In this document: piece after piece, positions 31,901 through 44,961 of the stretch
How positions within the stretch are numbered: the stretch's first letter is position 1
Layout of the letters: every line of letters begins with the position of its first letter
NCBI GenBank assembly: GCA_903887845.1
Contig: CAISRC010000065.1
Coordinates: 1 to 64,000, forward strand
Source of the DNA: an uncultured Chlorobiaceae bacterium
Lineage (GTDB): Bacteria; Bacteroidota; Chlorobiia; Chlorobiales; Chlorobiaceae
DNA: 64,000 nt
Direction of reading: 5' to 3'
Notes under the pieces: model-generated
The model's input: the letters and a program-made list of their open reading frames with translations, nothing else
Told to the model about the DNA's origin: nothing
The model's database searches: none
Position numbers and translations under genes: made by a program

Positions 31901-34900
31901 TTGACCACCATCGGGAACTCTGAACGCGAGACACAGAACCGCGTGCTTGCCCTGTTCACCAAAGAGCTTGCCTACCGCTCTCTCGGCAACTGGAAGGATC
32001 GCGAGGGGAACAGCAATATTGAGGAGCCTCTGCTCTCAGCCTACCTTTTGCGGAACGGCTACACTCCGGCGCAGAGTACCAAAGCCATCCATGAACTGCG
32101 TATTGAGGCAAATAATCCCAACCGTACGCTTTACGACAACAACCGCAAGGTCTACAGCCTCCTTCACTACGGTGTTCCGGTAAAAGCGGCGGCGGGTGAG
32201 AATAGTGAAACCGTCAAGCTGATCAACACCGACCACCCGGAGCTGAACGACTTTGCCGTTGCCGAAGAGGTGACGGTGTATGGGCAGCACGACAAACGGC
32301 CCGATATTGTGCTCTACCTCAACGGGATAGCGGTTGGCGTGCTGGAGTTGAAAAACAGCAGGGTATCGCTTGGTGACGGCATCCGCCAAAGCCTTGTCAA
32401 TCAGCGCCCCGAGTTTATTGCCCCGTTCTTTTCAACAGTGCAGTTCATTTTTGCCGGAAACGATTCGGAAGGACTGAAGTATGGTACGGTCAGTACGGAG
32501 GAGAAGTATTTTCTGCAATGGAAGGAGGATGAGGAGGATAACTCTCGTTTCAAGCTCGACAAGTATCTGCTCAAGATCTGCCGGAAATCCCGACTGGTTG
32601 AGCTGCTGCACGATTTTGTGCTCTTTGATGGCGGGGTAAAGAAGCTGCCACGGGTACATCAGTATTTTGGTGTCAAGGCGGCGCAGCGCTCTGCCGAGGA
32701 GTTCAGGGGTGGCATTATCTGGCACACGCAGGGGAGTGGCAAGAGCATGGTGATGGTGCTGCTGGCCCGCTGGATTCTGGAGAACAAGCCTGCCGCCCGT
32801 GTGGTTATTGTGACTGATCGCGATGAACTCGACAAGCAGATTGCCGGAGTTTTCACCGATGCGGGAGAAACAATCAGGCGCACCACCAGCGGCAGTGACC
32901 TGATGAAGCAGCTCAGCCAGCCAGCCCCGCGTCTGCTCTGCTCACTGGTACACAAGTTTGGCAGAAAAGGGGTGGATAATTTTGAGGAGTTTATCCGGGA
33001 GCTTGAATCACAGCCCGGCCATACGGTGGGGGATGTTTTTGTCTTTGTTGATGAGTGCCACCGGACGCAGAGCGGCAAGCTTCATCGAACCATGAAGGCT
33101 TTGATGCCTCATGCGGTTTTTGTCGGTTTTACCGGCACGCCTCTCTTGAAAAAGGATGCGGCCACCACCCTTGAAGTGTTCGGGAGCTACATTCACACCT
33201 ACAAGTTCAACGAGGCTGTTGAGGACAGGGTGGTGCTTGATCTGGTGTATGAGGCGCGGGATATTGACCAGCAACTTGGCTCGAAGGAGAAAATCGACGC
33301 ATGGTTTGATGCCAAAACGAGGGGGTTGAATGAGTGGCAGAAGGGCGCTCTTCGCGAGCAGTGGGGAACCATGCAGCATCTGCTCAGCTCCCGGTCACGG
33401 ATGAACCGGGTGGTCAACGATATTGTGTTTGATTTCAGTGTCAAGCCTCGTCTCAGTAACCATCGCGGTAACGCCATTCTGGTGGCTTCAAGTATCTACG
33501 AGGCCTGCAAGTACTTTGAGCTGTTTCAAAAGTCGGTGTTTAAAGGCAAGTGCGCGGTGATTACCTCCTACAATCCGCAGACGAGAGATATTACAACGGA
33601 AGATACCGGAGCCAACACCGAGACGGACAAGGAGTCGATCTACAATACCTACATGACGCTTCTGCAGGGTGTAGAGACCGTGCCGGGCAAGTCAAAAACA
33701 GAGAGTTACGAAGACAATGCCAAACGGCTCTTCAGGGAGCAACCGGCAACGATGAAGCTGCTGATTGTGGTCGATAAACTGCTGACAGGTTTTGATGCGC
33801 CGAGCTGCACCTGCCTCTATATCGATAAAAGTATGCAGGATCATGCTCTCTTTCAGGCCATCTGCCGCACCAATCGCCTCGATGGGGACGACAAGGAGTT
33901 CGGCTACATTGTCGATTATAAAGATCTTTTCAAAAAGATGAATGATGCTCTGAAGGTCTATACGGTTTATAGTTCAGAGCTGGATAAGAGCGATGGTGCA
34001 GGAGAGTCTGATATTCTGATGAAAGACCGGCTGGCAAAGGGGCGGGAGCGTCTCGACAATGCGCTTGAGGTGCTTGCACTGATCTGCGAACCGGTTGAGC
34101 CTCCGAAGGGCGAGCTTCAGCATATCCATTTTTTCTGCGGCAACAGTGAACTTCCCGAGGAGCTTGCTGCAAGAGAGGCGTTCCGCTCTGCCCTCTACAA
34201 GGCAACAGCCATGCTGGTAAGGGCCTATAGCGGCATTGCCGACGAGCTTGATGCCGCAGGCTACAGCGCCACTGAGGTGCAGCGAATCAAAAAAGCTCTC
34301 GACCGCTCGGTCAAGTTGCGAGAAATCATCCGCCATGCCAGCGGTGAAAGCATCGACCTGAAGGCCTATGAGGCGGATATGCGCCATCTCATCGATACCT
34401 ATATCGAAGCCGATGAGCCGAGAAAGATCTCTCCGTTTGATGCTCTGCCGCTTTTGGAGCTGATCGTGAAATCCGGCATTGCAGAGGCGATCAACAACCT
34501 GCCCGAGGGGATAAAGAGCCACAGGGATGCGATTGCCGAGACGATCGAGAACAATGTTCGAAGCAAAATCATCAAAGATCACCTGAACGATCCGGCATTT
34601 TATGAGAGCATGTCGCTTTTGCTTGACGAACTCATTGCTTCGCGCCGACGGAAAGCCATTGACTACGAGGCGTATCTCAAGGAGATGGCCGAACTGGCTA
34701 ACCGCGTAGCATCCGGCCATGCTGAAGAGACACCTGCGCAATTGAATACTCCCGGTCGCCGCGCATTATACAACAACCTGAAGCTCGACCGGATTGGCAA
34801 TGTTGACCTTGACCTGTCCGACGAGCCGACCGGCTATAAAGGGCGGCAGGATGAGAAATTGCGTCTGGCGATGATGCTGGATGAAACAGTCAAACGAGTC

Positions 34901-35029
34901 AGACCAAATGGATGGCGTGGGGTCAAACCGAAAGAGAACATTATCAAAGGGGCGCTTTTTGAAGTGCTGCAGGACGCTGACGAGGTGGAGCGGCTCTTTC
35001 TCGTTATTGAACGGCAACGAGAGTATTGA
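31901..35029 (+). CDS. hsdR: Type I restriction enzyme, R subunit
   Basis: The 1042-aa subunit cleaves unmodified DNA after ATP-driven translocation. The N-terminal nuclease has the PD-(D/E)xK signature: Asp135 in RPDIVLYL and Glu149-x-Lys151 in VLELKN. The SF2 motor has Walker A HTQGSGKS (Lys281), the DEAD-like box VFVDECHR, motif III VGFTGTPL and later RecA-2 motifs (VDKLLTGFDAPSC, QAICRTNR). The C-terminal ~250 residues are helical, for docking to HsdM/HsdS. It is separated from hsdM by ~1.8 kb containing a metallopeptidase gene and a toxin-antitoxin pair. Confidence 0.96.
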   Translation: MTTIGNSERETQNRVLALFTKELAYRSLGNWKDREGNSNIEEPLLSAYLLRNGYTPAQSTKAIHELRIEANNPNRTLYDNNRKVYSLLHYGVPVKAAAGENSETVKLINTDHPELNDFAVAEEVTVYGQHDKRPDIVLYLNGIAVGVLELKNSRVSLGDGIRQSLVNQRPEFIAPFFSTVQFIFAGNDSEGLKYGTVSTEEKYFLQWKEDEEDNSRFKLDKYLLKICRKSRLVELLHDFVLFDGGVKKLPRVHQYFGVKAAQRSAEEFRGGIIWHTQGSGKSMVMVLLARWILENKPAARVVIVTDRDELDKQIAGVFTDAGETIRRTTSGSDLMKQLSQPAPRLLCSLVHKFGRKGVDNFEEFIRELESQPGHTVGDVFVFVDECHRTQSGKLHRTMKALMPHAVFVGFTGTPLLKKDAATTLEVFGSYIHTYKFNEAVEDRVVLDLVYEARDIDQQLGSKEKIDAWFDAKTRGLNEWQKGALREQWGTMQHLLSSRSRMNRVVNDIVFDFSVKPRLSNHRGNAILVASSIYEACKYFELFQKSVFKGKCAVITSYNPQTRDITTEDTGANTETDKESIYNTYMTLLQGVETVPGKSKTESYEDNAKRLFREQPATMKLLIVVDKLLTGFDAPSCTCLYIDKSMQDHALFQAICRTNRLDGDDKEFGYIVDYKDLFKKMNDALKVYTVYSSELDKSDGAGESDILMKDRLAKGRERLDNALEVLALICEPVEPPKGELQHIHFFCGNSELPEELAAREAFRSALYKATAMLVRAYSGIADELDAAGYSATEVQRIKKALDRSVKLREIIRHASGESIDLKAYEADMRHLIDTYIEADEPRKISPFDALPLLELIVKSGIAEAINNLPEGIKSHRDAIAETIENNVRSKIIKDHLNDPAFYESMSLLLDELIASRRRKAIDYEAYLKEMAELANRVASGHAEETPAQLNTPGRRALYNNLKLDRIGNVDLDLSDEPTGYKGRQDEKLRLAMMLDETVKRVRPNGWRGVKPKENIIKGALFEVLQDADEVERLFLVIERQREY

Positions 35030-35745: not shown

Positions 35746-35984
35746 GCGGAGTGCCAGATACCCATTCTTTCCGAAAAGTTTTTAGGGGGGACTACTGGTA
35801 AAACGGATACACAAGCAACAGGTACATCAGTTGGCGCCATAAATTACTCTGGTTTGCTCTGTAACTATCCGTAACCTTATAGTAAAATAGTCGGAAATAT
35901 TTGTGATTGAAACTCTTTTGCAATATAGGACTTGGTTCTATATATTCGATAAAACAAAGTATTCTCACTGATCGAGGCGAAACT

Positions 35985-36365
35985 GTGCAAATTTTCAAAA
36001 ACAAGTGGTTCTCAAAATTCGCCAGAGAGGAGGGAATCCTTGATAAAGAGTTGTGCGAGGCGGTACGAGATGCCAACCGAGGACTAATCGATGCGGATTA
36101 TGGGGGAGGCGTCATCAAGCAAAGGATTGCGCGACCTAATGAGGGGAAATCTGGCGGGTTCCGCTCAATTATCCTTTATCGTCAGGATGAGAAGGCGTTT
36201 TTCGTTTTTGGCTTTCCAAAAAAAGATAAGGACAACATAAAAATAGACGAGGTACGATGGTTCAAAAAGATGGCAAAAAGTACTTTTGCTCTTTCAGAGG
36301 ATCAGCTTGAAAAACTCATTAAAGCTGGAGATTTCCGGCCCGTAAAATACCATGAACAAGATTAA
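35985..36365 (+). CDS. RelE/HigB-like toxin (PF06296 type)
   Basis: The 126-aa protein is started at GTG 35985, where the family N-terminus begins (MQIFKNKWFSKFAREEGI) and a GAGG lies ~7 bases upstream; the longer frame from 35907 adds 26 atypical residues. Diagnostic segments are A-x-R-G-L-I-D-A-D-Y-G-G-G-V-I-K-Q-R and the strand GGFRSIILYR. These cytoplasmic toxins are likely mRNA interferases. It overlaps the XRE-type antitoxin by 14 bases, giving the toxin-first order of HigBA-type modules. Confidence 0.88.
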   Translation: MQIFKNKWFSKFAREEGILDKELCEAVRDANRGLIDADYGGGVIKQRIARPNEGKSGGFRSIILYRQDEKAFFVFGFPKKDKDNIKIDEVRWFKKMAKSTFALSEDQLEKLIKAGDFRPVKYHEQD

Positions 36366-36833: not shown

Positions 36834-39236
36834 ATGCCCCTCAAAAAATCTGAACTCTACTCCTCCCTGTGGCAAAGCTGTGACGAACTGCGCGGCGGTA
36901 TGGATGCCAGCCAGTATAAGGACTATGTGCTCGTCCTGCTTTTTGTCAAATATATCAGCGACAAATATGCCGGTGTGCTCTATGCTCCCATAACCATTCC
37001 CGAGGGCGCAAGCTTCAGGGATATGGTTGCCCTCAAAGGCAAAACCGACATCGGCGACCAGATCAACAAAAAGATTCTTGGGCCGCTGGCGAGCGCCAAC
37101 AAGCTCTCCGATATGCCGGACTTCAACGACGACACCAAGCTTGGCAGCGGCAAGGACAAGGTCGATACGCTCACCAACCTCATCGCCATTTTTGAGAATC
37201 CGGCACTTGATTTCTCCAAAAATCGGGCAGAGGGCGACGATATTCTCGGCGATGCCTATGAGTATCTGATGCGCCACTTTGCCACAGAGAGCGGCAAAAG
37301 CAAAGGGCAGTTCTACACCCCTGCCGAGGTGAGCCGCATCATGGCCAGAATTGTCGGTATTCACGATGCCCCCACAACCAATAACACCACGGTGTACGAT
37401 CCCACCTGCGGCTCGGGGTCGCTCCTCCTGAAGGTGGGTGATGAAGCAACCGCCCGGGTAACGCTCTATGGTCAGGAAAAGGATGCCGCCACCTCCGGCC
37501 TTGCCCGTATGAACATGATTCTTCACAACAATCCCACAGCGGAAATCAAGCAGGGGAACACGCTGGCCAATCCCCTCTTTTTTGATGCCGATCTGGGCGA
37601 TCTCAAAACTTTTGACTATGTCGTCGCCAATCCGCCCTTCAGCGACAAGAGCTGGAGCAAGGGGATTGAGCCCCTGAATGATACGTATGGCCGGTTCCGG
37701 CATTTCGGTGTTCCCCCTGCCAAACAGGGAGACTACGCCTACCTGCTCCACATTATCCGCTCACTCAAAAGCACCGGCAAGGGAGCCTGCATTCTGCCCC
37801 ACGGCGTTCTCTTTCGGGGTAATGCCGAGGGCGATATTCGTCGCAAACTTATCAGGATGGGCTACATCAAGGGTATCATCGGTCTTCCGGCCAACCTCTT
37901 TTACGGCACTGGTATTCCCGCCTGCATTATTGTCATTGACAAAAAAGATGCTCATGCCCGCAAAGGCATCTTCATGATTGATGCCAGCGCAGGGTACATG
38001 AAGGATGGTCCCAAGAACCGTCTACGCGACATGGATCTCCACAAGATTGTTGATGTTTTTACCCGGCAGCTTGAGATCCCGAAATACTCCCGGATGGTCA
38101 GCATTGAGGAGATTGAGAAAAACGAGTTCAACCTCAACCTTCCACGCTACATCGACAACCAGGTGGCAGAGGATATTCAAGATATCGAAGGCCACCTTCG
38201 CGGAGGAATCCCCAGCACCGATGTTGATGGCCTTCAGCCCTACTGGGAGGTCTGCCCGGAGCTTCGCCAAACCCTTTTCAAGGCCAATCGTCCCGGTTAC
38301 CTTGATCTTGCTATCCCGAAGGGCAGCATCAAGAGTACCATCTACAACCACCCGGAGTTCGTCACCTTCATCGAGAGCATGAACAGCCTCTTTGCCGAGT
38401 GGCAGGAGAGCGCCGCCCTCAGACTCAAAAACCTTCAGCCCGCGTTTCATCCCAAGGCGCTGATTCAGGAACTCTCCGAAGAGCTGCTCACGCACTACAC
38501 CGGCAAGCCGCTGATCGACAACTATCACGTTTACCAGCACCTGATGGATTACTGGACGGAGACCATGCAGGATGACTGCTATCTCATTGCCGCAGATGGA
38601 TGGAGAGCTGAAACCTCTCGCCTTCTGGTGAAGAACAGCAAAGGCAAAGAGGTTGACAAAGGCTGGGCCTGCGATCTTGTGCCCAGGCAGCTTGTCATCG
38701 CTCGATACTTTGCCGAAGAGCAGGAAGCCATCACCCGGCTTGAGGCTAAACTGGAAAGCCTCAAGGCACGCATAGCAGAACTTGAAGAGGAGCACGGCGG
38801 GGAGGAGGGCGTTTTTTCAGGACTGGACAAGGTGAACAAGGCAAGTGTTACGGCGCGGTTGAAGGAGATTAAAGGGGAGAGGGAGAGCAAAGAGGAGGCC
38901 GATCTGCTCCGCGAGTGGCTGAAGCTTTCAGGCGACGAAGCCGACCTGAAGAAGTCGCACAAAGAGGTGGAGGCCAACCTTGACCAGCTCGCCTATGCCA
39001 AATATCCCTCACTGAGCGAAGAGGATGTGAAAACGCTGGTTGTTGATGATAAATGGCTCGCTACAATTGCTGCCGCCATTCACGGTGAGATGGATCGCAT
39101 CAGCCAGACCCTGACCCGCCGGGTGAAAGAGCTTGCCGAACGCTATGAAACGCCTCTACCCGAGGTGAACAGCAAGGTCGCCAAGCTGGAGGCGAAGGTG
39201 AATGAGCATCTTAAACGAATGGGGATGGAGCTATGA
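36834..39236 (+). CDS. hsdM: Type I N6-adenine methyltransferase, M subunit (extended)
   Basis: The 800-aa protein carries an HsdM N-terminal bundle, the SAM-binding motif VYDPTCGSGSLLL and the catalytic NPPF (DYVVANPPFSDKSW), followed by G-A-C-I-L-P-H-G-V-L-F. HsdM is usually ~500-530 aa; here ~280 extra residues follow, including a long charged coiled coil (about residues 625-740). The extension is in frame and the gene ends with the ATGA overlap to the KilA-N gene, so it is not a sequence error. It methylates adenine in the target chosen by HsdS. Confidence 0.94.
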   Translation: MPLKKSELYSSLWQSCDELRGGMDASQYKDYVLVLLFVKYISDKYAGVLYAPITIPEGASFRDMVALKGKTDIGDQINKKILGPLASANKLSDMPDFNDDTKLGSGKDKVDTLTNLIAIFENPALDFSKNRAEGDDILGDAYEYLMRHFATESGKSKGQFYTPAEVSRIMARIVGIHDAPTTNNTTVYDPTCGSGSLLLKVGDEATARVTLYGQEKDAATSGLARMNMILHNNPTAEIKQGNTLANPLFFDADLGDLKTFDYVVANPPFSDKSWSKGIEPLNDTYGRFRHFGVPPAKQGDYAYLLHIIRSLKSTGKGACILPHGVLFRGNAEGDIRRKLIRMGYIKGIIGLPANLFYGTGIPACIIVIDKKDAHARKGIFMIDASAGYMKDGPKNRLRDMDLHKIVDVFTRQLEIPKYSRMVSIEEIEKNEFNLNLPRYIDNQVAEDIQDIEGHLRGGIPSTDVDGLQPYWEVCPELRQTLFKANRPGYLDLAIPKGSIKSTIYNHPEFVTFIESMNSLFAEWQESAALRLKNLQPAFHPKALIQELSEELLTHYTGKPLIDNYHVYQHLMDYWTETMQDDCYLIAADGWRAETSRLLVKNSKGKEVDKGWACDLVPRQLVIARYFAEEQEAITRLEAKLESLKARIAELEEEHGGEEGVFSGLDKVNKASVTARLKEIKGERESKEEADLLREWLKLSGDEADLKKSHKEVEANLDQLAYAKYPSLSEEDVKTLVVDDKWLATIAAAIHGEMDRISQTLTRRVKELAERYETPLPEVNSKVAKLEAKVNEHLKRMGMEL

Positions 39237-40087
39237 GTAAATCAACAAAATCAATTATTGAAGTACAGGGTGTAGCCATTACCGTGCTTTCACAAAGTAA
39301 TGAAGATTACATCTCTTTAACGGATATTGCCCGGTATCGAAATGCACGGGAACCGTTTGCCATCATCAATAACTGGATGCGCAGCCGAAGTACGATTGAA
39401 TTTCTCGGACTTTGGGAAATATTGAGCAATCCAAGTTTTAAACCTCTCGAATTCGAGAGGTTTAAATCTGAAGCGGGAAGCAATTACTTTGTTCTCTCGC
39501 CTCAACGCTGGATAGAAGCTACTAATGCTCTTGGAGTTACTTCGAAATCAGGCCGTTATGGTGGTACCTATGCCCATAAAGATATTGCCTTTGAATTCGC
39601 TTCGTGGATTTCAGTTGAATTCAAGCTCTACCTTATCAAGGAGTTCCAGCATCTCAAGGATGACGAAAACCGACGTCTTTCTCTCTCATGGAACCTTAAC
39701 CGTACACTCTCAAAACTGAACTACCGGATTCATACTGATGCCATCCGCGACCATCTTATCCCAGCGGAAATAACACCTGCGCAGGCAGCCAACACCTACG
39801 CTAATGAGGCTGACATCCTCAATGTTTCCCTCTTTGGCCTGACCGCGAAAGAGTGGCGTGATGCCAATCCCAAACTTGACGGCAACATGCGCGACCATGC
39901 CACTGTGGAGCAGTTGCTCGTACTTGCCAACATTGAAGGGATGAATGCGGAGTTTATTCGCATGAACCTTGTGCAGGGCGACCGACTGAAACGGCTCAAT
40001 CAGATCGCCATTCGTCAGATGCAAACCCTTACCGCAGTGCCTGTTCGTTTACTCCCGGCAGGCACCGGAATGGAGGGGCATGCATGA
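39233..40087 (+). CDS. KilA-N domain DNA-binding protein
   Basis: The 284-aa protein overlaps hsdM (ATGA) and hsdS (ATGA) by 4 bases on each side, so it is made together with them. Residues ~20-150 form a KilA-N domain: ISLTDIARYRN, a W-M-R-S-R segment, then GGTYAHKDIAFEFASWIS and E-F-x-L-Y-L-I-K-E-F. The C-terminal half is helical and of unknown function. KilA-N domains come from phages and large DNA viruses. Its place inside the methylase-specificity operon is seen in other type I loci, but the function is undefined. Confidence 0.85.
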   Translation: MSKSTKSIIEVQGVAITVLSQSNEDYISLTDIARYRNAREPFAIINNWMRSRSTIEFLGLWEILSNPSFKPLEFERFKSEAGSNYFVLSPQRWIEATNALGVTSKSGRYGGTYAHKDIAFEFASWISVEFKLYLIKEFQHLKDDENRRLSLSWNLNRTLSKLNYRIHTDAIRDHLIPAEITPAQAANTYANEADILNVSLFGLTAKEWRDANPKLDGNMRDHATVEQLLVLANIEGMNAEFIRMNLVQGDRLKRLNQIAIRQMQTLTAVPVRLLPAGTGMEGHA

Positions 40088-41280
40088 GTGCTGAGGTGAA
40101 AAACGGCTATAAGCTGACTGAGGTCGGGGTTATTCCTGAGGATTGGGATGTTATGACACTTGGCACCGTATCTGAGATGTCTTCTGGTACTACGCCTTCT
40201 CGTACTTTAATGGATCGATATTATAAAAATGGTTCCATTGCGTGGGTCAAGACTTTAGATTTGAACAATTCAGATATTTGTGAAACCGATGAATGCGTCA
40301 CAGATTTAGCTCTTAAAGAAACATGTTTAAGAGTTAATCCAACAGGGACGGTGCTTGTTGCGATGTATGGAGGTTTTAATCAGATCGGAAGAACCGGATT
40401 ACTGAGGCTTCCTGCTGCTGTAAACCAAGCCATTACAGCGATTCATCCCTTTAAAGGCGTATTGCTTTCGGATTATTTGATCCGTAACATTAATTATAGG
40501 ATTGAATATTGGAAACGAGTGGCAAGCAGCAGCCGAAAAGATCCAAATATCACAAGTAAGGATATCAGGGATTTTCCTGTCGCTTGTCCGAAGTTATATG
40601 AGCAAGAATCCATTGCTGAGGCATTGGGCGATGCGGATGCCCTCATTGAATCTCTTGAGCAGCTTATCGCCAAAAAACGCCAGATCAAACAAGGTGCCAT
40701 GCAGGAACTGCTCACCGGCAAAAAGCGCCTGCCGGGTTTCAGCGGTGAGTGGGTAGAAAAAACGCTTGGTGAAATTGCAACTATAAAGACTGGAAGTAGC
40801 AATAATCAGGATAAGAATGAAGATGGTGAGTATCCATTCTTTGTTCGTTCTAATCATGTAGAGAGAATCAACAGTTATTCGCATGACTGTGAGGCCATCC
40901 TTATTCCTGGTGAAGGGGGGATCGGAAGCATTTTCCATTACATCAACGGACGTTTTGACGTTCATCAAAGGGTCTATGCCATCACCAAGTTTGTAGAAAC
41001 CGTTTCAGGGCTATTTGTTTTTTACTACATGGTTAAAAATTTTGGTGCGCATGCAATGCAGAATTCCGTAAAAGCAACGGTCGATTCACTCAGACTACCG
41101 ACATTTCAGAACTTTGAAATGTTGATTCCTGTAACCTACCAAGAACAAGCTGCCATTGCATCTGTCCTTTCCGACATGGACTCTGAAATTGAATCATTAG
41201 GAATAAAGCTGGTCAAAGCTCGCCAGTTCAAGCAGGGCATGATGCACAACCTCTTAACGGGAAAAACGAGGCTGGCGTAA
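40084..41280 (+). CDS. hsdS: Type I restriction specificity subunit
   Basis: The 398-aa protein has two target-recognition domains. Each starts with the typical entry motif (V-I-P-E-D-W-D-V and F-S-G-E-W-V-E-K-T-L-G-E-I) and is followed by a conserved helix with similar repeated sequence: LIAKKRQIKQGAMQELLTGK at ~residues 197-216 and a matching V-K-A-R-Q-F-K-Q-G-M-M-H-N-L-L-T-G-K at the end. The repeated helices set the spacing between the two half-sites. The target sequence cannot be read from the protein. Confidence 0.94.
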   Translation: MSAEVKNGYKLTEVGVIPEDWDVMTLGTVSEMSSGTTPSRTLMDRYYKNGSIAWVKTLDLNNSDICETDECVTDLALKETCLRVNPTGTVLVAMYGGFNQIGRTGLLRLPAAVNQAITAIHPFKGVLLSDYLIRNINYRIEYWKRVASSSRKDPNITSKDIRDFPVACPKLYEQESIAEALGDADALIESLEQLIAKKRQIKQGAMQELLTGKKRLPGFSGEWVEKTLGEIATIKTGSSNNQDKNEDGEYPFFVRSNHVERINSYSHDCEAILIPGEGGIGSIFHYINGRFDVHQRVYAITKFVETVSGLFVFYYMVKNFGAHAMQNSVKATVDSLRLPTFQNFEMLIPVTYQEQAAIASVLSDMDSEIESLGIKLVKARQFKQGMMHNLLTGKTRLA

Positions 41281-41417
41281 CAGATAGTTCTTCATTTTTT
41301 CTGAAAGCCATTATAACTTTTCTGATATCAGCTATGGCTTTAGAAATTATTGACGTTATACGTTGTCCTTGCCAAAAATATAGTAAATAACATTGGAAAA
41401 ATTTTGGAGAATATATA

Positions 41418-43253
41418 ATGCTAGATCTTTCAGCGTTACGTACCGCATTAGATGCGAACACTGGTTTTGTCGTTGACTCTCAAGTATTGGACTATGTTTT
41501 AGAAAGCATTAACAAAGATTTGGCTCCCATAGAGAATGATGCTGATGCTTGGCGCAAATTTTCAATGCTATGGCCACCACGACTTGTTCATGCTTATCGA
41601 AATCGCCATCTGATTCCTTTTTTTGGGTCTGGTGTTTCTATCGCAGCAGGTCTTCCTTCTTGGAATTCTCTTCTTGTGGATAATTTTGGATTATCGTCTG
41701 AGTTTATTGAAGACAAGGAGCTACAAAATGATCCTTTGACACTTGCTGAATTGGCGGCACAACATGTTGGTATTGATAAGCTTCAAAATACATTGCATAC
41801 TCGTTACGGATCAGTTAAAAAGCCGACAAGCACGCATGTGTTGCTGTGCAGTTTGCGCTGTCCGATATATATTACAACCAACTATGATGTCCTTTTTGAG
41901 GAGGCTTGGAAATTGCTCAATACCGGTATAAAACTTCATGTAGTCACGAATGATCTTTGGGTTGATGGTCTACCGAACAGCGTAGCGCAAATCAGGAATT
42001 CGAATGACCAAGCCTTGTTAATCAAGATTCATGGATCTACGGATAGGCCTGATGAGCAACTTGTACTTACACGAAGGGATTATCGGCACCATTACAGGAG
42101 TAATACAAAGCTATTCTCTTTACTTGGTGATTTACTTTCAAAGGAACATGTTCTATTTTTGGGATTTAGCCATCGAGATCCTGAGGTATCCCGACTTGTT
42201 GAAAATGCTATATTCGAATATGAGAAGGAGCAACTTAAGCCAACTGTAAGTAGGTCAAATGACAGGCCTCATTTTTATAGTCTCCAGTTCAATATGATGT
42301 CTCACAGCCCAGAAGTATACGCTGCTCGAGGGTTAGTTGCGTTACTTCCCCCTACACTTAAGCGTACTGCGGTTGACTCAAGAAGTACGGCACTATCGTT
42401 ATCAATGGCCGAACTGGTTTTAGCTGGAGATCAAGATACGCATAGCAAAATTCGACTGGACGATAAGCTCAGAGAATTTGCGGATCAAGTGGGACATCCG
42501 TTAGAAATGGCTCTATCTGTGTTGGAGGGATTCAAAAACAGTGCACTGACAAAACTAAGTGATTCAACATCTTCTGATGCATGGATGGATAAACTTCTCG
42601 TTGATCTTAAAGAATTAGCCAGCCAAGGAGTTTGGTTACTCAATGATGCAGGGGTGGTTCAGTCTTATCGAGTAGCAGCGGGCCAAGACAGCTCAAAAAG
42701 GGGGACGAAGAAGTCCTTTTCCGAGCGCCCGTATTTTCGTCAAGCGAAGACATATCGAAAGCCATTTGTGTCCGACACAACAATGTCTACATTCAATAGA
42801 AATAGTACATTTTTTATTTGTTTCCCTTTAATGAGCGCTAATGGTTTTGCTGGTTTACTTTTTGCAGCCTGCCAGTCAGGTACTTGGCAAGTGCCATTCC
42901 ATATTGCAAAAGAGTGTTGGAAAGATGATCTGTCTTTTGTTCTGATTGACTCAAACGGTATTGTGATAGTACCCCCGAATGATGAGTTTTCTTCATCGGG
43001 TAATACAGGTCCAGAGGGAGCAAATGAAGATCCTTTGAGTAACATCGGTTACTCATTCGAGAATATTCTATCGCTGTCACGCCGTGATTTTTTGGTGTCA
43101 CATGTTGCCCGTAATATTGTACCACTCAGTCAAGACGATGATATTGCAACAGTATCATCAGACCTAAGGATATACTCTGCTATTACCGAGGTAAGATCTA
43201 CAAGATGGAAGCTTTGTCTATCACGAACAATAGTTAATCTTGACATATTTTAA
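41418..43253 (+). CDS. SIR2-like NADase fused to a Cache-like sensor domain
   Basis: The 611-aa protein follows hsdS by 137 bases, with GGAG upstream of its ATG. Residues ~60-260 are a SIR2 Rossmann domain: FFGSGVSIAAGLPSW (70-74 NAD loop), TTNYDVLFEEA with Asn155, IKIHGS with the catalytic His205, and FLGFSHRDPEV. Residues ~395-605 look like a Cache (PAS-like) sensor, possibly double: L-L-N-D-A-G-V-V, S-E-R-P-Y-F-R-Q-A, KPFVSD, then FVLIDSNGIVIVP and a closing W-K-L-C-L-S. There is no membrane helix or signal peptide, which is unusual for Cache. Defence SIR2 proteins deplete NAD+ on infection; here the Cache part may be the trigger. That role is inferred from fold and location. Confidence 0.8.
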   Translation: MLDLSALRTALDANTGFVVDSQVLDYVLESINKDLAPIENDADAWRKFSMLWPPRLVHAYRNRHLIPFFGSGVSIAAGLPSWNSLLVDNFGLSSEFIEDKELQNDPLTLAELAAQHVGIDKLQNTLHTRYGSVKKPTSTHVLLCSLRCPIYITTNYDVLFEEAWKLLNTGIKLHVVTNDLWVDGLPNSVAQIRNSNDQALLIKIHGSTDRPDEQLVLTRRDYRHHYRSNTKLFSLLGDLLSKEHVLFLGFSHRDPEVSRLVENAIFEYEKEQLKPTVSRSNDRPHFYSLQFNMMSHSPEVYAARGLVALLPPTLKRTAVDSRSTALSLSMAELVLAGDQDTHSKIRLDDKLREFADQVGHPLEMALSVLEGFKNSALTKLSDSTSSDAWMDKLLVDLKELASQGVWLLNDAGVVQSYRVAAGQDSSKRGTKKSFSERPYFRQAKTYRKPFVSDTTMSTFNRNSTFFICFPLMSANGFAGLLFAACQSGTWQVPFHIAKECWKDDLSFVLIDSNGIVIVPPNDEFSSSGNTGPEGANEDPLSNIGYSFENILSLSRRDFLVSHVARNIVPLSQDDDIATVSSDLRIYSAITEVRSTRWKLCLSRTIVNLDIF

Positions 43254-43286
43254 CAATGGATATCTCATCATCCCAAAATCCAGAAG

Positions 43287-44456
43287 TTGATTCAGCGGGC
43301 GGGCAGTGAGTTGATACGGAGGCGGTTTGTGACCAGTGCCGAACTGCTTGTTGGTGTTTATGCTGCGTTGGTACAGACACTTGAAGATTTGGAGCTGCTG
43401 CGTACCGGCCCGTTTGATGCGGCGGTATGCCCTGATGCATCGCTTGCTGACCTTGATGATGAGGCGATGGTTCGCTTTATCCGCAGGGCGCGACTGTTGC
43501 GCGGGTTTCCCCTTCAAGAAGATGCCTCCGCTTTTGAGCTGTTGACTCATCTCAATTTGCTGAACAAGGGTCGGCCTTCTCATGCTGCGGTGCTGTTGTT
43601 CGGCTTTTATCCCCAGCGTTTTCTTATCTCTTCGGAGATCAAGTGTGCCCATTTTCATGGTACAAGGGTTGCCAAGCCGATACCATCATATCAGGTATAC
43701 AAGGGGCGGGCCTTTGAGCTTGTCGATCAGGCGGTTGACTTTGTTCTCTCGAAAATCGACCTTGCTGTTGGCACCCGAGCCGAAAGTGCGGAGGTTCCTG
43801 TCACCTACGAAATCCCTCCTGAAGTGGTGCGGGAGGCAATTGTCAATGCTGTTGCGCATCGGGATTATACCAGTACCGGCAGTGTTCAGGTCATGTTGTT
43901 TGCTGATCGACTGGAGGTGTGGAACCCCGGTACTCTTTCGCCATCACTGACCCTTGAAAAGCTCAGAAAACCTCACGGATCGTTTCCTGCCAACCCGCTT
44001 ATGGCGGAGTCACTCTATCTTGCCAAATATATTGAACGTATGGGCACGGGAACAGGTGACATGATCACCTTTTGCAGCAATGCAGGTCTGCGTGAACCGG
44101 AGTTCAGCCTGACGGACGGGTTTGTAGTCACTATCTGGAGAAAGGAGAGTGCGCTGGCTGGAGCAGTAGCAGAAAATATTTTGTTGCCCACCGGGGAAGT
44201 CGCCGGGGTTTATGTTTCATCTAAATATGTTATTGGTAAAACGCCGGTCAAAACGCCGGTCAAAACGTCGGTCAAAACGCCCGATCGGATTCTTGAACTG
44301 CTTGCGGCAAACCCTGATCTGACATTGGCTGAGGTGGCTAAAGCAATCGATAAATCTTTGAGAGCAGTGGAGCGAGCAAGTGCAAAATTAGTGAAAGAGG
44401 GGCGCTTGTGCTATGTTGGTCCAACAAAGGGCGGCCATTGGGAGGTATTGAGCTGA
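43287..44456 (+). CDS. ATP-binding wHTH regulator (AlbA_2/HATPase family), N-terminus apparently missing
   Basis: The 389-codon frame from TTG 43287 carries the middle and C-terminal parts of the large AlbA_2-HATPase regulator family: F-D-A-x-V-x-x-x-A-S-L-A-D-L-D, GRPSHAAVLLFG, the ATPase motif VVREAIVNAVAHRDY and VWNPG. A linker of K-T-P-V repeats and a winged helix (EVAKAIDKSLRAVERASAKL) follow. The ~120-residue AlbA_2 DNA-binding domain normally present before this is absent, and the start lacks a ribosome-binding site. The frame is the same as that of the SIR2-Cache gene, with only its TAA stop and 11 codons between them. It may be a truncated gene, or translated by re-initiation. Confidence 0.65.
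   Translation: MIQRAGSELIRRRFVTSAELLVGVYAALVQTLEDLELLRTGPFDAAVCPDASLADLDDEAMVRFIRRARLLRGFPLQEDASAFELLTHLNLLNKGRPSHAAVLLFGFYPQRFLISSEIKCAHFHGTRVAKPIPSYQVYKGRAFELVDQAVDFVLSKIDLAVGTRAESAEVPVTYEIPPEVVREAIVNAVAHRDYTSTGSVQVMLFADRLEVWNPGTLSPSLTLEKLRKPHGSFPANPLMAESLYLAKYIERMGTGTGDMITFCSNAGLREPEFSLTDGFVVTIWRKESALAGAVAENILLPTGEVAGVYVSSKYVIGKTPVKTPVKTSVKTPDRILELLAANPDLTLAEVAKAIDKSLRAVERASAKLVKEGRLCYVGPTKGGHWEVLS
44238..44281 (+). repeat. 12-bp in-frame tandem repeat
   Basis: AAAACGCCGGTC occurs three times (44238-44249, 44250-44261, 44262-44273, the third with one mismatch), followed by a partial fourth. It encodes the K-T-P-V/K-T-S-V linker of the ATP-binding regulator. Such a unit can change in number without breaking the frame. 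Confidence 0.85.
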
Positions 44457-44529: not shown

Positions 44530-44961
44530 TTATTCCCAGGGGTCAAGAAGTGTTGCGCCAGAACCATTCATGTCGGCGGTGTTTCGCGTAACCACGATCA
44601 AGTCGTTTGTTATGGCCGTCGCAGCAATGAGTGCATCGATGACGGGGAGTGAACGACCAATTTTCTCAGATTCACCAGGCATTGTGCCCCAACAACGTGC
44701 AACTTCAGTGGTAATGCCAAAAATCCGGCCATTGAACCGTTCCATTAATTCGTCAGCCAGCCACGCCTGCAATTGCATTTTTTTTCGGCCTTCCGCCAGC
44801 TTTGAAATTCCTTTTTCAACTTCACCAAGCGTGATGACACACAGATACAGGTTCTCTTCATCCTGACCATCAATCCACTCCATAACTTTCGGTAATGGCT
44901 CCGTTTTGATCAGTTCAGAGATCACACATGTATCCAACAGGTAACCTTTCCCTGACTTCAC
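44530..44961 (-). CDS. vapC: VapC-type PIN-domain toxin
   Basis: The 143-aa ribonuclease has the PIN acidic residues: Asp in YLLDTCVISEL (~residue 10), Glu in LGEVEKGI, Asp in PVIDALIAATA and a late Asp in N-T-A-D-M. It starts 4 bases inside the end of the antitoxin gene (ATG overlapping the upstream stop), a standard VapBC arrangement. It probably cleaves a tRNA or rRNA when freed from the antitoxin. Confidence 0.92.
   Translation of the reverse strand: MKSGKGYLLDTCVISELIKTEPLPKVMEWIDGQDEENLYLCVITLGEVEKGISKLAEGRKKMQLQAWLADELMERFNGRIFGITTEVARCWGTMPGESEKIGRSLPVIDALIAATAITNDLIVVTRNTADMNGSGATLLDPWE

Follow-up and report, generated by a model that had tools for sequence, protein, structure and literature searches.

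The window (the whole stretch of DNA analyzed, 64,000 nucleotides from an uncultured Chlorobiaceae bacterium) contains a type I restriction locus on the forward strand, in which hsdR (31901–35029, TTG start, TIGR00348 8.9e-151), hsdM (36834–39236) and hsdS (40084–41280) were identified, as expected from the restriction neighborhood described in the original prediction. A KilA-N protein is encoded between hsdM and hsdS (39233–40087, forward strand; Pfam KilA-N 3.5e-20, PADLOC PDC-S22 6e-131); several relatives have kept it, whereas others lack it or carry a degraded copy. Genes for a YgjP-like metallopeptidase and a RelE-type toxin (35907–36365, upstream of hsdM) lie between hsdR and hsdM. Directly after hsdS, on the same strand and separated from it by 137 nt, is the SIR2-Cache gene (41418–43253), followed by a 5′-truncated DUF4062-HATPase_c_4-HTH gene (43287–44456, forward strand), from which the N-terminal DUF4062 domain is gone. 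hsdS and the truncated gene are the left and right flanks of what is termed here the cargo slot. Beyond the DUF4062 remnant is a PIN-domain (VapC-like) gene (44530–44961, reverse strand), and a PUCC gene was among the Pfam matches, which together with the genome size hints at a phototrophic host, perhaps a green sulfur bacterium.

The SIR2-Cache gene starts with ATG and encodes 611 amino acids with no internal stop, at exactly the coordinates and on the strand first proposed. A GGAG ribosome-binding site was read from the sequence at 41406–41409, forward strand, 8 nt before the ATG at 41418. A scan for promoters and terminators around the gene returned nothing above chance. Hydropathy analysis revealed no segment resembling a membrane helix or signal peptide, and thus none of the flanking transmembrane helices or signal peptides of extracellular Cache sensors; hydrophobicity peaks at residues 465–483 (mean 1.74), where Cache strands are predicted. 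On this basis a membrane location was ruled out. The architecture that had been described is thereby supported: a soluble protein, with a SIR2 domain first and a Cache region second.

The SIR2 and Cache halves of the protein

The SIR2 domain (SIR2_2/ThsA-type, residues ~56–275, 41583–42242, forward strand) was identified with Pfam (SIR2_2, E = 3.8e-24, residues 150–270), PADLOC (top model ThsA, 3.4e-27, residues 59–270), phmmer (closest solved relative Thoeris ThsA 7uxt, 1.8e-19) and Foldseek. The intact SIR2 site that had been claimed was confirmed in the sequence and in a phmmer alignment with B. cereus ThsA (6lhx): the NAD-binding GSGVS motif spans residues 70–74 (41625–41639), and Asn155 (codon 41880–41882, within TTNYD, residues 153–157) and His205 (codon 42030–42032, within KIHG, residues 203–206) align with the catalytic residues Asn112 and His152, respectively, all on the forward strand. 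Mutation of either Asn112 or His152 abolishes NAD+ cleavage by ThsA (PMC7272460). In a 13-sequence alignment, Asn155, Asp157, His205, Gly206, Ser251 and Asp254 were invariant. Of the features of SIR2 defense NADases, a Rossmann SIR2 fold, the GxG(V/L)S, TTNYD and K-HG motifs and both the catalytic Asn and the catalytic His were present. The full-length protein was modeled with SIR2 relatives only, viral contigs supplying relatives for alignment depth; the model had a mean pLDDT of 51 and was confident in the SIR2 half alone (mostly 65–84, residues 51–275). The 50 PDB matches listed by Foldseek for this model were all anti-phage SIR2 NADases (KomC/KomBC, ThsA and DSR2). These results bear on a reading in which the protein is not a defense protein at all but a metabolite-responsive sirtuin-like or ADP-ribosylating regulator, for which it can be said that Cache domains sense carboxylates in nutrient signaling (PMC5062169). 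This reading is extremely unlikely, given matches that are SIR2_2/ThsA-type and not deacetylase-like, fold matches that, among those listed, are all anti-phage NADases, and the location of the gene in a defense slot with sporadic occurrence, described below.

The C-terminal half was assigned to a double-Cache (dCache_1-like) region at residues ~340–605 (42435–43232, forward strand). The Cache identity originally proposed was upheld by HMM, BLASTP and Foldseek comparisons, but the extent given for it, residues 395–605, was too short, the better boundaries including a long N-terminal helix. Pfam dCache_1 (PF02743) scored 17.1 bits with the whole protein and 20.8 bits (E = 3e-4) with the isolated C-terminus, both below the cut-off of 45, and the sole non-SIR2 match of the protein among NCBIfam models was KinD (0.0042). 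An HMM built from four other dCache sensors scored 38.7 bits with the C-terminus (E = 9e-11; best of 2000 shuffles, 10.3), with some selection bias because the four sensors had been picked by motif similarity to it, and BLASTP against two of these sensors gave 46 and 42 bits. SLOG, the sensor domain of ThsA, was ruled out as the identity of the C-terminus, which had no SLOG match and matched Cache domains instead.

Because MAFFT, given both halves jointly, aligned Cache rows to the SIR2 part, the C-terminus was modeled alone, from a five-row alignment including dCache rows. Mean pLDDT was 47, with values of about 57–83 across residues ~385–485, and the elements came in a Cache-like order: long helices at the N-terminus, then two modules of strands. 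A match to a non-Cache fold would have counted against the original assignment; the 50 PDB matches listed by Foldseek, among them KinD (6.7e-7), Mlp24, YkuI, DctB and PctA, were to Cache-type sensors or Cache-containing proteins, as judged by their titles. Since the dCache rows of the alignment may steer the model, these matches are taken as corroboration and not as proof. The C-terminus thus has the fold, in a low-confidence model, and the sequence motif of the Cache superfamily.

Arg437 (codon 42726–42728, forward strand, within SERPYF) aligned with Arg131 of the pyruvate-binding sensor domain of KinD (PDB 4jgo versus the R131A mutant 4jgq). The KinD-pyruvate entry is 4jgp, and Arg437 aligns with the very arginine that was replaced in the R131A entries. 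As this arginine is kept, a carboxylate-type ligand is suggested for the Cache half. A different possibility is that a phage protein docks directly on the Cache half, or that this half merely dimerizes the NADase, as in the activation of DSR2, a SIR2-type protein, by phage tail tube; the PADLOC Dsr1 model matched the protein weakly (E = 1.4e-8). We consider a protein trigger unlikely: the KinD pocket arginine is retained, the large C-terminal sensor of DSR2 is absent, and it is chiefly small ligands that Cache domains sense (PMC4822843). Cache families are mainly extracellular, with the exceptions of YkuI_C and Diacid_rec (PMC4822843), and intracellular ligand sensing by a Cache domain is therefore unusual.

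The cargo slot in related genomes

Many members of the genus carry orthologous hsdM genes (87%–98% identity). The slot was compared using fifteen stretches from relatives, and its cargo is described in ten related genomes. In blastn comparisons with L056–L061, in which the DUF4062 gene is present, homology to the relatives restarts at 43269, 16 nt past the SIR2-Cache stop codon, which places the right boundary of the acquired segment at 43253–43269. The DUF4062-HATPase_c_4-HTH gene is intact in G035 (544 amino acids) and G060 (505 amino acids; L057:15024–16541, N-terminal DUF4062 6.4e-21), and the copy in the window lacks the first ~117 residues. In L061 (G065) and L059 (G083), C-terminal pieces of the DUF4062 gene recur, interleaved with PIN-domain genes, a pattern that suggests repeated recombination at the right end of the slot.

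The position occupied here by the SIR2-Cache gene, which is this genome's cargo in the slot, holds an OLD/Gabija-like ATPase in G035, G084 and G052, a PDC-S06 ATPase with GmrSD in G060, GmrSD with an NsnB-like ATPase in G085, an FRG protein in G083, OLD, 8xMP and TIR in G065, an OLD-like protein in G079, a 5′-nucleotidase (PADLOC PDC-S08) in G061 and a dCTP-deaminase-type protein in G024; in G052, G061, G024 and G079, where the right flank is different or degraded, the slot was set by position after hsdS. Across the genus (L056–L061, L067–L070) the slot is hypervariable and includes several uncharacterized genes, those with no Pfam match including L058:13167–14039, L059:10810–11643, L069:10146–11222 and L070:12666–14099. 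The position of hsdR also varies: it is upstream of hsdM in the window and in G035 and G085, and downstream of the slot in G060, G052 and G061, from which the slot can be said to lie inside the restriction locus. As the slot carries defense cargo in relatives, the defense context originally proposed is supported more strongly than before, and a defense role for the SIR2-Cache gene is well supported from context. The slot after hsdS is a practical place to look for more defense genes in the genus.

In all ten relatives the cargo is co-directional with hsdS. Together with its lying inside the locus in G060, G052 and G061, and with the 137 nt that separate the SIR2-Cache gene from hsdS on the same strand, this arrangement would fit a protein held in check by the Hsd complex and freed when a phage inhibits restriction. 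PrrC, an anticodon nuclease, is kept with type I restriction systems in this manner. Such a guard of restriction is nevertheless quite unlikely, since the slot cargo families are mutually unrelated and several match stand-alone systems, which makes a shared Hsd-binding mechanism improbable.

Searches for relatives and origin of the gene

Searches for a further SIR2-Cache protein found none in the family or in 98 genomes of the class, in 395 genomes of the phylum searched with the C-terminus as query, in 245 genomes of another class, or in the plasmids, phages and viral contigs searched, and the viral contigs contained no Cache relatives of the C-terminus. Beyond the phylum the homologue searches were weak, being either motif-limited or confined to plasmids and phages. 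A weak, motif-limited scan of 84,980 species genomes with two degenerate peptide patterns likewise yielded no SIR2-Cache protein. All four of its matches were ordinary dCache sensors of the membrane, two of them chemoreceptors and the others a diguanylate cyclase and a histidine-kinase-type protein; of the four, L019 was assigned by its matching like L018. The probes used (A1–A3) are search probes and not biological alignments; A3 consists of the real C-terminus and two artificial rows of conservative substitutions, added to loosen the peptide patterns. The further SIR2-Cache homologues near defense genes that the original prediction called for were thus not found in these searches, and that the fusion is a single sequence is the main weakness of the case made here.

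Third-position GC content (GC3) was nearly equal in the two halves (SIR2, 33.3%; Cache, 33.0%), as against 66.9% in hsdM, 64.2% in hsdR, 51.0% in the DUF4062 remnant and 41.6% in hsdS. From this uniformity both halves look acquired as one unit, and the gene probably arrived as a ready-made fusion. A recent acquisition is suggested by the low GC3 and by the loss of the 5′ end of the neighboring DUF4062 gene. A genome-wide search found no other dCache_1 match in the host, so the sensor half does not derive from a recognizable host sensor.

The gene could instead be a decayed or non-functional chimera, a recombination product present in a single genome, perhaps with its 3′ end cut off and the Cache half a relic. 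It is unique in 98 genomes of the class, and since the right junction truncated the neighbor and lies 16 nt past the stop codon, a longer ancestral gene is possible. We nevertheless consider decay very unlikely, as there are 611 open codons and a ribosome-binding site, GC3 is even in both halves, the catalytic residues are intact, and the end of the protein coincides with the last Cache strand.

Proposed mechanism and comparison with known systems

The reading that we favor, at a probability of roughly 55%, is that the SIR2-Cache protein, cargo of a type I restriction-modification locus, acts against phage as a one-protein effector, a ThsA-type NADase gated by a cytosolic double Cache that replaces SLOG. 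The SIR2 half would be a ThsA-type NAD+ hydrolase and the C-terminal half a cytosolic double-Cache sensor standing where ThsA has SLOG. The NADase would be kept inactive until an infection-responsive small molecule binds the Cache pocket; given Arg437, a carboxylate-type host metabolite is the most plausible ligand. Binding would change the quaternary state of the protein, upon which the SIR2 domains would cleave NAD+, and the loss of NAD+ would halt the growth of the infected cell before phage release. The computations show the two domains, the NADase residues, the soluble topology, the defense-cargo slot and the foreign base composition of the gene; that the protein is an active NADase, that it binds a ligand, which ligand this is and how phage are affected are what we infer from them. 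Gating of NAD+ cleavage by the Cache half is expected by analogy with ThsA, in which a C-terminal sensor controls an N-terminal SIR2 NADase, and ligand-gated depletion of NAD+ is thus predicted on the strength of that analogy.

We suggest more tentatively that this may be a single-gene device, in which the intracellular Cache gates the NADase directly and a metabolite of host or phage, and not a dedicated second messenger, serves as the alarm. If so, sensing of an ordinary metabolite could drive abortive infection, and a known self-sacrifice defense would have a new trigger, acting through a sensor normally found outside cells. What wakes the NADase is the usual open question for SIR2 defense proteins. 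In a one-protein system with a recognizable predicted small-molecule pocket, the trigger would be accessible to ligand screening.

SIR2 effectors combined with a sensor are already known; a Cache domain as that sensor is, as far as the literature searched shows, not described. A search for SIR2 or sirtuin together with Cache domain retrieved no relevant paper, an absence that is not proof of novelty. Like Thoeris ThsA, the SIR2-Cache protein is soluble, begins with a SIR2 NADase domain in which the catalytic Asn and His are conserved, and ends in a predicted small-molecule sensor; it differs in that the sensor is SLOG in ThsA and Cache here, with no SLOG match in the C-terminus. In Thoeris, the TIR protein ThsB makes a cyclic ADP-ribose signal. 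No thsB-like TIR gene is adjacent here, the neighbors being hsdS and the DUF4062-ATPase gene. On these two counts, SLOG and TIR, the protein falls outside Thoeris. TIR_2 matches in the host genome are on other contigs only (C110 and C136); one of them (L103, G000:C110:60597–60938) contains one in-frame TAG and is possibly broken. Approximately 30% of ThsA homologues have no SLOG but an N-terminal multi-transmembrane domain (PMC7272460), which the SIR2-Cache protein does not have.

The effectors of KomC, DSR2, SIR2-APAZ and Avs5 have a homologous SIR2 NADase domain, but their triggers are partner proteins, Argonaute, STAND or large protein sensors, and to our knowledge none has a Cache domain. 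DSR1 and DSR2 are moreover ~1000–1200 amino acids long, compared with 611 here, and the NCBIfam Dsr2 model scored 17 bits against a cut-off of 1400. On the sensor side, KinD and other dCache_1 sensors share the Cache fold and an RxYF-type motif with a pocket arginine, but theirs are extracytoplasmic, flanked on either side by a membrane helix, and their outputs are kinases, cyclases or chemoreceptors. Although a double Cache in the cytosol is unusual, there is a precedent in YkuI (EAL-YkuI_C; Foldseek match 2bas, weak Pfam YkuI_C match to the SIR2-Cache protein at E = 0.16), in which a cytosolic Cache is likewise fused C-terminally to an enzyme, with the difference that in YkuI the enzyme is an EAL domain of the c-di-GMP phosphodiesterase type and the Cache is single.
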